Positions 42,092-47,858 of a stretch of DNA of 64,000 bases are shown here, in pieces (the stretch's first letter is position 1; each line of letters starts with the position of its first letter). The translations under genes and the position numbers were made by a program. A model generated the notes under the pieces. It saw only the letters and a list, made by a program, of their open reading frames with translations, ran no database searches and had not been told where the DNA came from. Origin of the DNA: Clostridia bacterium. GTDB lineage: Bacteria > Bacillota > Clostridia > Lutisporales > Lutisporaceae. The stretch lies in the NCBI GenBank assembly GCA_035628995.1, contig DASPIR010000023.1:620001-684000 (forward strand). The letters are read 5' to 3'.

Positions 42092-42265
42092 ATCTTCAGG
42101 GCAGGGTGAAATTCCCGATCGGCGGTAACGCAGTCATTGAACTGTTAGCCCGCGAGCGAAAGCAGACCCGGTTAGATTCCGGGGCCGACAGTAAAGTCTG
42201 GATAGAAGAAGATGCATTTTTTGAGCAAGTTGACATTCCCTGAGATTATTCTTCAGGGAATTTTT
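42092..42265 (+). promoter_or_regulatory. FMN riboswitch (RFN element) with terminator
   Basis: The aptamer runs from ATCTTC (42092) to GAAGAT (42213), which close P1. It carries AGGGCAGGGTGAAATTCCCG, ATCGGCGGTAA, AGCCCGCGAGC and GATTCCGGGGCCGACAGTAA, all hallmarks of RFN. ATTCCCTGA (42235-42243) and TCAGGGAAT (42253-42261) plus TTTTTAT form the OFF-state terminator just before ribU. FMN binding is expected to stop transcription of the riboflavin transporter gene. Confidence 0.96.
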
Positions 42266-42286
42266 ATATTTTCGGAGGGTTTTATA

Positions 42287-42850
42287 ATGAATAATAACAC
42301 AAACAAACTGGTTAGAATCGCTATGCTTTCAGCACTTTCTATTGTGCTGGTAATGCTGGTCAAGTTCCCCATCATTCCATCAGCACCATTCCTGGAGTAT
42401 GAGCCAGGAGATGTACCGATGCTGATAGCAGCCTTTATGTATGGTCCCTTGGCAGGTCTCGCTATGACTGTTATTGTATCAACCATACAAGCCTTTACTG
42501 TAAGTGCTGCAGCAGGCTGGGTTGGATTGGTGATGCACGTGATAGCTACTGGCACCTTTGTTGTCGTATCCGGTGCCATCTACAGAAGATTCCACACAAT
42601 CAAGGGAGCCTTTGCAGCTTTGGCAGCAGGTTCAATTTGCATGACACTTGTAATGATACCCTGCAACCTGTTTTTCACAGTAAAATTTTACGGGGTTCCA
42701 TATGATGCAGTAGTAGCAATGCTTCCGACTGCAATCCTGCCATTTAACCTGATTAAATCCTTGGCTAACTCAATAATAGTAATATTGGTTTACAAGCCAT
42801 TGAGCAGATTCTTCAAAGGTGCAGACAGAGCACAAAAGAACGCAGCTTAG
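42287..42850 (+). CDS. ribU: Riboflavin ECF transporter substrate-binding subunit RibU
   Basis: 187 residues, six helices. The N-terminal NKLVRIAMLSALSIVLVMLV region, LEYEPGDVPMLIAAFMYGPL and IVSTIQAFTVSA are typical of RibU S-components. It binds riboflavin in the membrane and works with a shared EcfA/A'/T energy module encoded elsewhere. The FMN riboswitch directly upstream confirms the vitamin. ATG 42287 follows TTCGGAGGGTTTTATA; an in-frame extension upstream would be inside the terminator hairpin. A terminator follows 12 bases after the stop. Confidence 0.94.
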   Translation: MNNNTNKLVRIAMLSALSIVLVMLVKFPIIPSAPFLEYEPGDVPMLIAAFMYGPLAGLAMTVIVSTIQAFTVSAAAGWVGLVMHVIATGTFVVVSGAIYRRFHTIKGAFAALAAGSICMTLVMIPCNLFFTVKFYGVPYDAVVAMLPTAILPFNLIKSLANSIIVILVYKPLSRFFKGADRAQKNAA

Positions 42851-42861
42851 CACTCAAATGC

Positions 42862-42903
42862 AAAAGAGGCTGGTGGGTTCCCCCATTAGTCTCTTATTTT
42901 TTT
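42862..42903 (+). terminator. Terminator of ribU
   Basis: AAGAGGCTGGTGGG (42864-42877) pairs, with G-U pairs, to CCCATTAGTCTCTT (42882-42895), followed by ATTTTTTT. Confidence 0.8.
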
Positions 42904-43091
42904 ACATATTTTAGAAAAATCCTGTGCATATATAATAATTGAGTGACTAAAAAATCAAGGGATTAACGATAGTTATTATCGTAAAGTCTTCCAATAACTA
43001 ATTAAACGGCGTGACTGGCACTAATTCTCAGCAAAATTAACAATGAATATTATTATCTGCTTTTAACCCAATATTTGCGCGTTTTTACAGA

Positions 43092-43120
43092 TTGACAATC
43101 ATATAACAATTTTGTATTAT
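43092..43120 (+). promoter_or_regulatory. SigA-type promoter of the FMN-binding lipoprotein gene
   Basis: Consensus TTGACA (43092-43097), 17 bases, TATTAT (43115-43120). The gene starts 36 bases on. This near-ideal promoter indicates strong expression independent of ribU. Confidence 0.75.
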
Positions 43121-43156
43121 AATAGATGAATAAATGAAAATATGGGGGAATTATCT

Positions 43157-43654
43157 ATGAAATCACAAAAACTAATTACATTGGCTCTTGCTGTTGTTCT
43201 TGTTCTGAGCCTTGCAGCATGCAGCCCAAGCGCACCTGCAGCAGTTGAACCAACTCCTGCACCAACCGTAGAACCTACAGCAGCACCTACTCCTGCAGCA
43301 GAACCTGCTCCTGCAGCAAACGGCCTTAAGGATGGATCATACAATGCTGCACAAGACAAATATGATGATTACGGCTGGAAGGGACAGATAACAATTGAAG
43401 TAAAGGATGGCAAAATCGGCACTGTTGATTTTGACTATGTAAACAAAGAAAATAAGTTGAAATCAGAGGATCAGGGCTACATAAAAGCAATGGAAGATAA
43501 GACAAAGGTAAACCTCGCAAAGGCTATGGTAGAGCTTGAAAGCTCACTCCTTAGCAAACAGGATGCAGCAGCTGTAGATACAGTAACTAGTGCCACAGCT
43601 ACAAGCAATGACTTCAAAACCTTAGCAGCTAAAGCACTTGAGAGTGCAAAATAG
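43157..43654 (+). CDS. FMN-binding-domain lipoprotein (PplA-like)
   Basis: 165 residues. A lipoprotein signal (LVLSLAAC, C22) is followed by a Pro/Ala/Glu/Thr-rich spacer (25-55). A single FMN-binding domain follows: GLKDGSYNAAQDKYDDYGWK, ITIEVKDGKIGTVDFDY. The covalent flavinylation site DTVTSATATS has T147 as the likely FMN-carrying residue. Such lipoproteins (for example Listeria PplA) carry FMN attached by ApbE/FmnB and pass electrons outside the cell. The riboflavin transporter gene 300 bases upstream fits that need for flavin. ApbE, EetA/B and Ndh2 are not in this window. ATG follows TATGGGGGAATTATCT. Strong own promoter. Confidence 0.88.
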   Translation: MKSQKLITLALAVVLVLSLAACSPSAPAAVEPTPAPTVEPTAAPTPAAEPAPAANGLKDGSYNAAQDKYDDYGWKGQITIEVKDGKIGTVDFDYVNKENKLKSEDQGYIKAMEDKTKVNLAKAMVELESSLLSKQDAAAVDTVTSATATSNDFKTLAAKALESAK

Positions 43655-43718: not shown

Positions 43719-44996
43719 TTACACATATCGCTCCATTATAATTTTACTGACTCTCTTAGCCATAGCCATTATAGTAAGTATAGGCGGATTTCCCAAAGAC
43801 TCGGGGAACAGCGTTGCATCGGCAATATACAGATTTTCAGGAAGCTTAGGATTGTGAAAGGTTTCCGCTTCCTGTCCTGTGAGCGGCAGCATACCACCGG
43901 GATGTCCGGCATTTATCGTTCCAAGGAAAATATTGTCCTTTCTTATACCATACCTGCCAAGTATCTCCCTGCAGATCTCTACTCCCTCCTGCAGTCTTTC
44001 TTTATCAATATCTGTAAGTGTTTTTTTGATATTTTTATTATCAATGCTTCCGATACTTGAATCTGCCAGCTTAATCATTAGTGTCAGCGTATCCGAAGCA
44101 GGATATCGCCAGCTTTTATTAAAGAAAAAGCTTAGATAATCAAAATACGGGGATAAGATATAATGCTCCCTCTGCACGGCAAAGGGCATGGAAAGCTCTT
44201 TATTCTGAAGGCTTCCCTTCTGCTCGGCAGCTACGCAGAGGACCGGATCAACAAACAGTCTGCTTTCACATTCAATACCAGAATTCTGAAGGATTACAGG
44301 GGTTGAAAAGCCGCCTGCCGCAAGTATGACAATATCAGCCGGATAGAAGTCCTTCTGCACCTGTACTCCCTTGACGAAACCCTTCTCTGCAACAACCTTT
44401 GTAACCTTGCAGCCTGTAACAAGTTTCGCTCCCGAATCCTGTGCAGCCGTAAGCATTCGGCGGCTGTCCCATTTCACACCGTACTGACAGCCAAGGACGC
44501 ATCTTCCGCAGCTGGTGCAGGTACTATAATCTCCAAGTTTCGGTATAGGTTGGGGGTTCAGTTCCATTTCCCTGCATATCTCAAACAATCTCTTTGTGGT
44601 ATCCCGCCATTTGTTTTGATGATTCTTTGTAATGGGAATCTCCTTATAAAGCTCCTCGAATTCATCGTCCAAATCAATTCCAAGCGCCTTTAGCCCTTTG
44701 TCCATACGAAGCGCATTTCCCGCAGAAAGCGTAGTAGTTCCACCCAAACCGCTCCCTCTGACCATAACCATCCTATCTTCGGTTTTATGCACTCTCATTG
44801 ATGGAAACAGCAGCTGTATTTCCCTTTCATCAAAAAACAGTCCTGTTTTTTTCAGCTTTTCCAGGACAGACAAATTAGAGGAAAAAGGCTTGAACTCTCT
44901 GCCTGCCTCCAGGACGGTCACTTGAAATTTCCCCTGCAGCTTCTTGGCGGCGGCTGCTCCGCCTGCACCACTGCCAACCACTATCACTCTTTTCAT
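43719..44996 (-). CDS. GMC-type FAD oxidoreductase with a 4Fe-4S-like cysteine cluster
   Basis: 425 residues. The FAD-binding VVGSGAGGAAAAKKL lies at 7-21, the GMC motif RGSGLGGTTTLSAGNALR at about 80-97, and DIVILAAGGFSTPVILQNSG mid-protein. The C-terminal catalytic region is GTINAGHPGGMLPL and GNPPILTIMA. C160, C163, C166, C170 (CTSCGRCVLGC) look like an inserted iron-sulfur or ferredoxin-contact cluster, unusual for classical GMC enzymes but found in anaerobes. It would oxidise or reduce an alcohol-like substrate with electrons routed to an iron-sulfur carrier. Last of four overlapping genes (ATGA overlap with the preceding gene). Substrate unknown. Confidence 0.82.
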   Translation of the reverse strand: MKRVIVVGSGAGGAAAAKKLQGKFQVTVLEAGREFKPFSSNLSVLEKLKKTGLFFDEREIQLLFPSMRVHKTEDRMVMVRGSGLGGTTTLSAGNALRMDKGLKALGIDLDDEFEELYKEIPITKNHQNKWRDTTKRLFEICREMELNPQPIPKLGDYSTCTSCGRCVLGCQYGVKWDSRRMLTAAQDSGAKLVTGCKVTKVVAEKGFVKGVQVQKDFYPADIVILAAGGFSTPVILQNSGIECESRLFVDPVLCVAAEQKGSLQNKELSMPFAVQREHYILSPYFDYLSFFFNKSWRYPASDTLTLMIKLADSSIGSIDNKNIKKTLTDIDKERLQEGVEICREILGRYGIRKDNIFLGTINAGHPGGMLPLTGQEAETFHNPKLPENLYIADATLFPESLGNPPILTIMAMAKRVSKIIMERYV

Positions 44997-45535
44997 TTCA
45001 AAGCCCTCCCGCTTAAATATCCTTTACAGCAGCTGCCGCCTTCAGTGATTCTTTCATAAAAACACAGCCTGCCTCCTGAAAGTCCTGCTGCCAGTCCTTC
45101 ATCCAGTGAAGAAATAAGGTTGCAAACTCCTTCGGAATAATATTTACTGAAATAGCACTGTTTGATTATAATTTCACCCTGCCTATCACATTGAAAATCT
45201 ATTCCGATGAGCTTATAAATAACCTTAAGTGCCGTAATAGCTTCTTCCCAGGTTGCTATATGAAGGCTTTTTCTCAGGTTCTGTCCAAAAATATAAGAAT
45301 TTTGATACAACCGGTTTTTTACTTCTTCAATTGGACCTCTGCTCTGCAAATAGCTCTCAGCCTGCTCCTTTGTAAATAAAGCATACTTTAACAAGCACTC
45401 CTCAAAAGAAAGCCCCGTGATCTCCGACGGCTCACTTTGGAAGGCATAACCCGTCAAGCAGAACAGTTCATTCAGCTTTTTCCTCTTAATAAATCCCGGT
45501 ATGTAGAGCTGCATTATTTTCAGGAGCATAATCAT
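44993..45535 (-). CDS. Hypothetical protein of the radical SAM/GMC operon, 180 aa
   Basis: A soluble protein with helices up front (LFCLTGYAFQSEPSEITGLS, ATWEEAITALKVIYKLIG). The Cys-rich end has IIIKQCYFSKYYSEGVCNLI, LDEGLAAGLSGGRLCFYERI and TEGGSCCKGYL. The spacing of cysteines in strands (C...C...C...CC) recalls ligand- or metal-binding domains such as V4R or ATC-hydrolase-like proteins, but I do not claim either. It shares ATGA overlaps with both neighbours (4 bases each), so it is made in step with the membrane protein and the GMC enzyme and probably acts on the same substrate. Confidence 0.6.
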   Translation of the reverse strand: MIMLLKIMQLYIPGFIKRKKLNELFCLTGYAFQSEPSEITGLSFEECLLKYALFTKEQAESYLQSRGPIEEVKNRLYQNSYIFGQNLRKSLHIATWEEAITALKVIYKLIGIDFQCDRQGEIIIKQCYFSKYYSEGVCNLISSLDEGLAAGLSGGRLCFYERITEGGSCCKGYLSGRALK

Positions 45536-45933
45536 ACTCCTGCTTTCTTCATCTTCATGAGGTATAATGCTGCAATACCTATAAAACCGTCAACAATAAA
45601 GTTGGCGAAATATATCAAGTAATGCTGGTGAATTACGAATAGATAAATAGAAATAATTGAAGATGCCAGTTTGGCTTGAGCCAATAAAAACGGATAAATA
45701 TTATTCTCAGGATAGCGGTACATCAGGCATGCAATCAAAGTCACAAGGTACATATATGCAGAAGCCAGCGTCAAATAAAAGCCGGTGCCTTGTACTGGTG
45801 ATTGGGGCAATCCGAAATAACTCGAAATACTGTTAAAAAAAATCAGGGCTGAATCTGGAAAAAATAGAAAGATCACGCCCACAACGGCAAATATCGCTGC
45901 TGCTGTAAGACTGAACAGTTTATACAATCTCAT
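45532..45933 (-). CDS. Four-helix membrane protein of the radical SAM/GMC operon
   Basis: 133 residues. Hydrophobic segments lie at about 7-28, 50-72, 82-103 and 107-126 (LFSLTAAAIFAVVGVIFLFF; GFYLTLASAYMYLVTLIACL; FVIHQHYLIYFANFIVDGFI). His-rich VIHQHYLIYF sits near the membrane surface. No family is recognised; the layout is DoxX-like in size only. It starts 18 bases after the radical SAM stop with GGAGGTGTAAGT and overlaps the next gene by four bases. It could hold a quinone, lipid or terpenoid substrate for the operon's enzymes; this is speculation from topology. Confidence 0.6.
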   Translation of the reverse strand: MRLYKLFSLTAAAIFAVVGVIFLFFPDSALIFFNSISSYFGLPQSPVQGTGFYLTLASAYMYLVTLIACLMYRYPENNIYPFLLAQAKLASSIISIYLFVIHQHYLIYFANFIVDGFIGIAALYLMKMKKAGV

Positions 45934-45951
45934 ACTTACACCTCCATACTT

Positions 45952-47145
45952 TCATCGCTTATATAACATTCGTGAAAACTCGGACAGCGGGCTAAACTGG
46001 ACTTCCTTCATCATTTCCATGGTATCTTCTTTACTGATGGGAGACTGTCCCTTATAATATTTTTTCAGCAATTCATAGTTTTTGTTAATAAAACAGCAGC
46101 TTTCCGACGGAAAATGCTCTTTCATCTCTGAAAAAACGGCTTGCACCGACTTATCCCGTACATTTCCAAAGGTCATGGGCGTAAATACACAGGGGCTGAC
46201 CTCTCCAAATGCATCTATATAGACCATTTTATTGCCTGCATTACAGCCGAAGTGCTCTCCTCCCTCAAAATGTCCAAGATAATTTACCGTAATTTTTCCC
46301 TCTTTATTGTATTTATCCTGCAAGCGTACAAGGCTCAGCCTTTCCTCTTCGGTAATGACTGAAGCCTCGTTCCAGAAGGCCTCTACCGTTGGCTTGGTTT
46401 CACTCAGCCAGGCTTCATGGATATCAAGGCTTATCAGGAAATTTAGAAATTCCTGTACCTGATTTCCCTGGAGCATCTTCCTGGATATGACTGCTGATAC
46501 ACTTACATGAACTCCTACGTTTTTAAATATTTCTATCGCTCTGAGCGCTGTCCGGAAGGCCCCTTTTGATCCCCTGATCCGGTCATGTTCTTCTTCTTCC
46601 CAATGGTCCAGGCTGATTGATACATACAAAAGACCTGCTTCCTTAAGCTCCGCTGCCAGTTGCTCCGTAAGATTGGTACCTGTGGTAAACAGCTTTATTG
46701 CGCAATCATCCCCGACACTTTTTACAATCTCAACAATATCTTTGTTCAAAAGTGGCTCCCCACCGGTGAAGCCCAGCCAGAAAACGCCCATTTTCTTCAG
46801 CTCCTGTATGAGCTGCTTGATTTCAGCCGTATTTAGAAGCTCCCCGCTTCTATTCTTATTGTAACAATATCGGCAATTCTGGGGGCAGACATTGGTCAAG
46901 CAAATTTGAGCGTGGGAGGGTCCCGACCTCTTTGCCAGCAGCTGCTCATTTATGAAGCGGGTAAAGGCTTTGCTGTTCACCGAAGGCAGATGCGAATGAA
47001 TTATGAGCTGCCCGCCTACATTCAACAAATTGAACTTCCCCATATACTTAGTCAGGAACCAATTGATTGAAGGCTTTACCCTTATGATCTGAATATTTGA
47101 CAATAGTGTTTTAACCAAGATAATTTTATTTTTAAATCCAGCCAT
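45952..47145 (-). CDS. Radical SAM protein with SPASM-like C-terminal cysteines
   Basis: 397 residues. N-terminal 75 residues resemble a membrane-associated or recruitment segment (KPSINWFLTKYMGKFNLLNV). The radical SAM site is C87-x3-C91-x2-C94 (TNVCPQNCRYCYN), followed by GFTGGEPLLNKDIVEIV, TTGTNLT and SISLDHW. The C-terminal GCNAGNKMVYIDAFGEVSPC and SESCCFIN give SPASM/Twitch-like auxiliary cluster ligands. Such enzymes include NirJ/AhbD-type heme enzymes, HpnH-like lipid enzymes and RiPP maturases such as mycofactocin MftC. ATG 47145 follows TGTGAGGTTTAGAAAC. First gene of the four-gene operon. No precursor peptide is visible upstream. Substrate unknown. Confidence 0.85.
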   Translation of the reverse strand: MAGFKNKIILVKTLLSNIQIIRVKPSINWFLTKYMGKFNLLNVGGQLIIHSHLPSVNSKAFTRFINEQLLAKRSGPSHAQICLTNVCPQNCRYCYNKNRSGELLNTAEIKQLIQELKKMGVFWLGFTGGEPLLNKDIVEIVKSVGDDCAIKLFTTGTNLTEQLAAELKEAGLLYVSISLDHWEEEEHDRIRGSKGAFRTALRAIEIFKNVGVHVSVSAVISRKMLQGNQVQEFLNFLISLDIHEAWLSETKPTVEAFWNEASVITEEERLSLVRLQDKYNKEGKITVNYLGHFEGGEHFGCNAGNKMVYIDAFGEVSPCVFTPMTFGNVRDKSVQAVFSEMKEHFPSESCCFINKNYELLKKYYKGQSPISKEDTMEMMKEVQFSPLSEFSRMLYKR

Positions 47146-47314
47146 GTTTCTAAACCTCACAAATTAAATATTTAACATTATACTCCAATTATACGAAATT
47201 AATTTTTCAATGTCTGAAATTTTTAATGTCAGCTTCATATTCTTTAAACCCTTATAAAAATTATTAAATAAATTGAAAACCTTAAGGCAAATTATTGGAC
47301 GCTCTTACATGGAT

Positions 47315-47338
47315 AAAACAAAAACCCCCAAGTGGGGG
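47315..47338 (-). terminator. Terminator of the flavodoxin gene
   Basis: CCCCC (47325-47329) and GGGGG (47334-47338) form a GC-only stem followed on the minus strand by TTTTTGTTTTATCC. The 47146-47314 spacer before it shows no gene. Confidence 0.75.
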
Positions 47339-47375
47339 CGATGAAACACGAAAACCGATGATATGCTTTTCTATC

Positions 47376-47858
47376 CTATTTTGATAAAATATTTTTAGCG
47401 TACTTGTCAATCTTATCTTTCGAAAGCCTTGAATAATCTTGTGTTATTCCTTTTACAATCCGTATCACATGCTTTTCGATAAAGCTTATCTTATCAATAT
47501 GCAATTCGCCACCAAATGTTTCCATTATAACAGCATGGCTAAATAGCTCTTCAGGAAAAGAAGCTTTTAATTCTTTTTCTATTATAACAGAGTCTTGCTC
47601 TCCAGCACAGATAAATAATCCAAGTCTCTTTGTCTTTAATTCTTCTGCATGCTTAAGCATATATTTGTGCATTTGTTTTTGGATTTTACCTACGTATATA
47701 GAACCACCCAGAATCACAGTGTCATACTCTTTAAGTTCCGGCACCTTATCTTTCATAATATTAATCGATGAAACATTTTCACCCAGCTTTGATTTTAATA
47801 ATGTTACAGCCTTTTGAGTACAGCCATATTTTGTTGCATATATAATAAGTATTTTCAT
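47376..47858 (-). CDS. Flavodoxin-domain protein (HemG-like)
   Basis: 160 residues. The FMN phosphate loop YATKYGCTQKA at 7-17, YDTVILGGSIYVGKI and GLFICAGEQD are typical of the flavodoxin_5/HemG-like group. E. coli HemG is a protoporphyrinogen oxidase, but in an anaerobe without visible heme genes nearby a generic FMN electron carrier is as likely. Cytoplasmic. The start is preceded by AAAAGGTGGTTTTTTT. Monocistronic. Confidence 0.85.
   Translation of the reverse strand: MKILIIYATKYGCTQKAVTLLKSKLGENVSSINIMKDKVPELKEYDTVILGGSIYVGKIQKQMHKYMLKHAEELKTKRLGLFICAGEQDSVIIEKELKASFPEELFSHAVIMETFGGELHIDKISFIEKHVIRIVKGITQDYSRLSKDKIDKYAKNILSK

Follow-up and report, generated by a model that had tools for sequence, protein, structure and literature searches.

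We analyzed a four-gene operon located at positions 43719-47145 of a 64,000-nucleotide stretch of Clostridia bacterium DNA (family Lutisporaceae; contig DASPIR010000023.1, positions 620,001 to 684,000), which is referred to below as the window. The operon encodes a radical S-adenosylmethionine enzyme (rSAM), a small membrane protein (M133), a cysteine-rich protein (C180) and a flavin adenine dinucleotide (FAD)-dependent GMC oxidoreductase (GMC). The coordinates (Table 1) and the families agree with those named in an earlier interpretation made from the letters alone (the sequence-only reading). All four genes are co-directional, with successive spacings of +18, -4 and -4 bases, and they form a single transcription unit. 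The rSAM gene starts with the ATG at 47145, with GAGGT upstream as a ribosome-binding site; the GTG at 47160 falls within this site. The M133 gene is preceded by the ribosome-binding site GGAGGTG, 5 nt upstream.

Table 1. Features of the operon in the window and of related or neighbouring genes at other loci (L numbers).
Feature	Location	Strand	Description
rSAM	window 45952..47145	minus	radical SAM enzyme, 397 aa
M133	window 45532..45933	minus	membrane protein, 133 aa
C180	window 44993..45535	minus	Cys-rich soluble protein, 180 aa
GMC	window 43719..44996	minus	FAD-dependent GMC oxidoreductase, 425 aa
Candidate sigma-70-like promoter of operon	window 47188..47216	minus	CAGACA-17-TATAAT, consensus match only
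Intrinsic-terminator-like hairpin	window 47324..47339	minus	between upstream flavodoxin gene and operon, consensus match only
Type II cassette	L024 13-5674		PS_pyruv_trans-like, NAD_binding_4/AMP-binding fusion, C180, GMC; Betaproteobacteria metagenome-assembled genome (MAG)
Type II cassette	L083 4165-10084		PS_pyruv_trans-like, NAD_binding_4/AMP-binding fusion, C180, GMC; relative of Lachnoclostridium MAG
Type II cassette	L025 4757-9269		NAD_binding_4/AMP-binding fusion before C180-GMC
TonB-dependent receptor	L022 3325-5814		4-base overlap with rSAM gene
TonB-dependent receptor	L063 11343-13841		4-base overlap with rSAM gene
Corrinoid methyltransferase genes	L057 422-4310		MtrH-like/pterin-binding, B12-binding, CobW; Dehalobacter genus
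Corrinoid methyltransferase genes	L058 15123-18770		MtrH-like/pterin-binding, B12-binding, CobW; Dehalobacter genus
URO-D-like gene	L015 6103-7092		within few kb of operon, window's own family

Computational comparison of genomes identified the rSAM-M133-C180-GMC block, with order and strand preserved, in about 20 independent loci. Such recurrence is more than would be expected by chance. The carriers include Dehalobacter, Ca. Formimonas, other Bacillota, Kryptoniota/Bacteroidota and Calditrichota, and the genes flanking the block are usually unrelated. A scan of 84,980 species genomes with a GMC alignment returned 11 loci; C180 adjoined GMC in all 11, and nine of them carried the four genes in order. 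Searches within the phylum and around one Bacteroidota/Kryptoniota carrier added 12 further loci, in which the block was complete, cut off where the contig stops or, at one locus, fused. Within the window's own family, C180 was detected in 3 of 22 genomes, each with the whole block. Two independent profile searches of 391 genomes of the class found C180 and M133 in the same four (G000, G008, G012 and G271); elsewhere among the 391 there was one weak fragment of each protein. The weak fragments of C180 in G056 and G1109 (E about 1e-4) and of M133 in G315 were set aside. Further, the pairwise distances of the four proteins correlate across 19 loci (r = 0.89-0.96); the distance pairs are not independent of each other, and therefore we take this as a sign of joint descent and not as a probability. 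We found no relative of C180 on viral contigs or on the plasmids searched. The suggestion that the four products act together is thus strongly supported, and the co-occurrence in other genomes, whose absence that reading had named as the outcome that would count against it, was observed.

Two loci deviate from the common arrangement. At L016 (7241-8314, genome G012) rSAM lacks approximately the last 65 residues, including C351, while the other three genes are intact; this could reflect degeneration, real variation or an assembly error. At L066 (9401-10807, genome G403) rSAM stops behind the region of its first auxiliary cysteine and continues in frame into C180, and M133 is lost, possibly through a deletion or a misassembly.

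The rSAM protein matched Pfam Radical_SAM (E = 1e-27) and SPASM (E = 3e-6), the latter over 44 of 67 positions. The motif CxxxCxxC of the radical SAM cluster (C87/C91/C94) is invariant in 19 loci, while the only invariant cysteines of the C-terminus are C301, C319 and C351. The full SPASM set of seven cysteines, which serves two auxiliary clusters, was not found in rSAM, and the C-terminus is consistent with a single, 'twitch'-like auxiliary cluster. The SPASM label of the sequence-only reading needs restricting to a C-terminus with one such cluster. The N-terminal 75 aa are conserved and contain an invariant HSHLP. The nearest solved structures are SkfB (6efn, E = 2e-17) and MoaA. The best curated models, TIGR04053, AhbD, NirJ2 and PqqE, all scored far below their cut-offs.

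Both small proteins had been said to match no known family, and this was confirmed: neither M133 nor C180 gave a Pfam or NCBIfam match even at E ≤ 1, and neither had a PHROG match. M133 has five predicted helices and its model is a confident helical bundle, for which no match was found in the PDB. The AlphaFold2 model of C180, a structure prediction that had been proposed as a check, reached a predicted local distance difference test (pLDDT) score of 90.3. Its best PDB matches in Foldseek were Bet3/TRAPPC3 structures (1wc8, E = 9e-4, probability 1.00), among them 6aq3, in which palmitate is covalently bound; next in rank came the V4R protein MJ1460 and MopR with its aromatic sensor domain. C180 is therefore predicted to adopt the Bet3/V4R fold, a fold for binding hydrophobic ligands, and V4R domains are thought to bind such ligands (PMC2253512). 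Five residues of C180 (C127, C138, D145, R162 and C170) are invariant in 19 loci.

C180 resembles the V4R/Bet3 (TRAPPC3)/ATC_hydrolase superfamily in its predicted fold, and shares with ATC_hydrolase proteins a collinear C...C...D...C pattern. Its sequence match is, however, marginal, and C180 forms a family of its own that is tied to GMC. The homologue at L024 matched ATC_hydrolase (PF14196) with E = 0.0022 and 19.3 bits, below the cut-off of 28.1. We rejected membership of C180 in PF14196, as the window protein had no match and the profile-profile comparison with hhalign was not significant (E = 0.12). A true ATC_hydrolase-family domain is encoded elsewhere in the window's own genome (L069, G000:C34:176607-177038), within a 326-aa frame that is rich in Cys at the N-terminus and carries hydrophobic segments at either end.

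The GMC protein matched Pfam GMC_oxred_N (PF00732, E = 1e-18, 68 bits against a cut-off of 23), with a resemblance to cholesterol oxidase among the weak matches. The catalytic His/Asn pair is intact, H365 being invariant and N403 nearly so. By alignment to 8hdd/6a2u and to PMC6719666, we assigned the motif CxxCxxCxxxC (C160/C163/C166/C170) as an iron-sulfur (Fe-S) ligand set. C160, C166 and C170 align with C212, C218 and C222, the three 3Fe-4S ligands of the Burkholderia FAD-glucose dehydrogenase (BcGDH alpha/gamma/beta), and C163 could be a fourth ligand. Because of this correspondence, GMC should be a dehydrogenase that exports electrons via an Fe-S relay. The two systems also share the His/Asn pair, and in both the GMC subunit is encoded alongside a small partner and a membrane component. 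They differ in the additional C163, in C180 not being a hitchhiker protein exported by twin-arginine translocation, and in the operon having gained rSAM and lacking a cytochrome c subunit; a sugar is an unlikely substrate of the window system. The extra cysteine cluster of GMC had been noted from the sequence, but it is not unique to the operon. A distant GMC with a similar cysteine motif, the only Fe-S GMC in the plasmid search, lies on plasmid pDA100 of Photobacterium sp. DA100 (L085 7701-9017), and the other three operon genes are absent near it. Since this enzyme stands alone, Fe-S GMC enzymes are more widespread than the operon.

Three loci carry a second type of cassette (type II; Table 1), in which C180 and GMC are kept and rSAM and M133 are replaced by a fusion of a fatty-acyl reductase with an acyl ligase. 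L024 and L083, in which a polysaccharide-pyruvyl-transferase-like (PS_pyruv_trans) gene precedes the fusion, belong to different phyla; their NAD_binding_4/AMP-binding fusions are 46% identical. On the GMC tree the type II members are not united in a single supported group, and the cassette types may therefore have swapped partners. By placing the C180-GMC module beside enzymes of fatty-acyl reduction and activation, the type II arrangement suggests a substrate resembling an acyl chain. The fusion matches, in domain order, the first half of the ether-lipid enzyme ElbD of Myxococcus, which consists of fatty-acyl reductase (FAR), acyl ligase (ACS), acyl carrier protein (ACP) and acyltransferase (AT) domains (PMC9131029). 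In contrast to ElbD, it has no ACP or AT domain. Neither the four-domain protein of the Elb pathway nor, in the window's type I operon, the FAR-ACS fusion was present.

We tentatively favour, with confidence a little short of even, a self-contained, membrane-associated anaerobic pathway in which rSAM first modifies a lipid-like substrate and GMC then oxidises an alcohol on it, with C180 presenting the chain. According to this scheme, rSAM would carry out a radical C-H modification of a hydrophobic molecule bearing an acyl or alkyl chain, and M133 would hold or present the substrate, or anchor the complex, in the cytoplasmic membrane. C180 would bind and shield the hydrophobic chain and dock with GMC, whose H365/N403 pair and FAD would oxidise the alcohol; the neighbouring Fe-S cluster would then pass the electrons on to a carrier, as it does in BcGDH. 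The C180-GMC module shared by both cassette types would take a hydrophobic alcohol or aldehyde, GMC oxidising the head while C180 shields the chain. Preparing the substrate would fall to rSAM and M133, at the membrane, in type I and to the fatty-acyl reductase/ligase in type II. The fixed block, its co-occurrence, the families, the match of the cysteines to those of BcGDH and the predicted fold of C180 are computed results; we infer that the substrate is lipid-like, in which order the steps run, that a complex forms, and what M133 and the conserved cysteines of C180 do. The sequence-only reading had proposed a membrane lipid, quinone or terpenoid; the fold of C180, M133 and the type II cassette support this only indirectly. 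It is possible, albeit doubtful, that the product is an undescribed bacterial membrane lipid (or lipid-borne redox molecule), made by rSAM and oxidised by the Fe-S GMC, with its chain handled by C180, and spread horizontally among anaerobes including the cultured Dehalobacter.

Several observations weigh against a lipid-like substrate. The Foldseek TM-scores of C180 were moderate (0.42-0.53). Aromatics and tetrapyrroles can also be bound by V4R-type domains, so a hydrophobic ligand is not necessarily a lipid. The nearest named families of rSAM (AhbD, NirJ2, PqqE) are heme and cofactor enzymes, not lipid enzymes, and the link to type II cassettes comes from three loci, two of which are closely related. 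In addition, a TonB-dependent receptor (CarbopepD_reg_2 and Plug domains) precedes the rSAM gene in Kryptoniota/Bacteroidota loci (L022, L063, L023, L062 and L066, with its last codons recognisable in L061 and L064), and it could take up an external compound.

Part of this evidence would suit a tetrapyrrole or corrinoid pathway. In it, a heme- or corrin-like ring would be the target of trimming or modification by rSAM and the cargo of C180, with a redox step left to GMC. AhbD, NirJ2 and NirJ1 are among the best model matches of rSAM, the breadth of V4R-type ligands would accommodate a ring, and the TonB receptor would fit as the upstream gene of Kryptoniota-type loci. Corrinoid methyltransferase genes lie 3-5 kb from the operon in L057 and L058, and a URO-D-like gene occurs at L015. 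Most loci, however, have no corrinoid genes beside the operon, and a general corrinoid-methyltransferase link was rejected as confined to a few loci. With the heme models of rSAM all far below their cut-offs, and type II cassettes joining C180-GMC to fatty-acyl chemistry, we regard such a pathway as unlikely. The same receptor, the patchy distribution of the operon and the cholesterol oxidase likeness of GMC would agree with a catabolic system that imports a hydrophobic alcohol from outside, for instance a terpenoid, a steroid or an aromatic compound, and oxidises it anaerobically. This also seems improbable, as the neighbourhoods contain no recurring beta-oxidation, coenzyme A ligase or other catabolic genes, and as Bacillota have no outer membrane and their loci share no transporter.

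Modification of a quinone or polyprenyl at the membrane by rSAM and GMC would make use of M133 and of the hydrophobic-ligand fold of C180, but we saw no quinone-biosynthesis genes in the neighbourhoods and type II cassettes indicate acyl chains; we find it very unlikely. We give hardly any credence to a mycofactocin-like system, in which a peptide matured by rSAM would serve as a redox cofactor and be re-oxidised by GMC. Both clusters combine a radical SAM enzyme with a GMC flavoenzyme (MftC- and MftG-like), SkfB, the closest structure to rSAM, is a peptide maturase, and MftG, a mycofactocin dehydrogenase, passes its electrons to an acceptor other than oxygen (PMC11778925), as GMC may do. Nevertheless, rSAM scored 90.8 bits with the MftC model TIGR03962 (cut-off 265), and GMC scored 58.8 and 35.3 bits with the MftG models TIGR04542 and TIGR03970 (cut-offs 400 and 387). 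No PqqD/RRE (MftB-like) match was present in the four operon proteins, and no small open reading frame was common across genera within 400 bp on either side of the operons, the search for MftA and MftB covering these proteins and flanks. There is no room for a peptide gene inside the operon because the genes overlap. Mycofactocin also differs in having neither the Fe-S ligand set of GMC nor the V4R-fold and membrane proteins. Judged from these comparisons, the operon would not belong to the mycofactocin system, as had been doubted before.

That the operon belongs to no known pathway, as suggested earlier, is strongly supported: the four genes travel together as a fixed unit in several phyla, and the neighbourhood comparison did not reveal a known pathway, the other outcome named as counting against that reading. 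No gene family beyond the block recurred across phyla in a consistent place. We found no description of the gene set in open-access literature (most subscription journals lie outside this scope), and the Ca. Formimonas metaproteome paper, when its text was searched, did not mention the four genes. The enzymes come from known superfamilies, while the pathway as a whole may be new and may yield an anaerobic membrane lipid or cofactor that has so far gone unrecognised. The fixed unit, present in several phyla, includes two protein families for which there is no existing model. An Fe-S GMC dehydrogenase with a Bet3/V4R-fold protein of its own would represent a new way to feed a hydrophobic substrate to a redox enzyme. 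As bacteria already under study (Dehalobacter strain DCA and Ca. Formimonas warabiya) carry the operon, these proposals are directly testable.

Transcription signals were sought by consensus match. There were 19 promoter-like sites in the region (10.1 expected) and four terminator-like hairpins (3.8 expected). Since one hairpin separates the operon from the upstream flavodoxin gene (47376-47858) and the promoter-like site lies between this hairpin and the rSAM gene, flavodoxin is probably transcribed apart. We also rejected flavodoxin as a fifth operon gene, as its homologues do not recur beside the operon. On the other side (42212-43654), and convergent with the operon, a gene for the S component of an energy-coupling factor (ECF) transporter adjoins a gene for a flavin mononucleotide (FMN)-binding lipoprotein-like product; they are possibly a flavin- or quinone-related transport pair.

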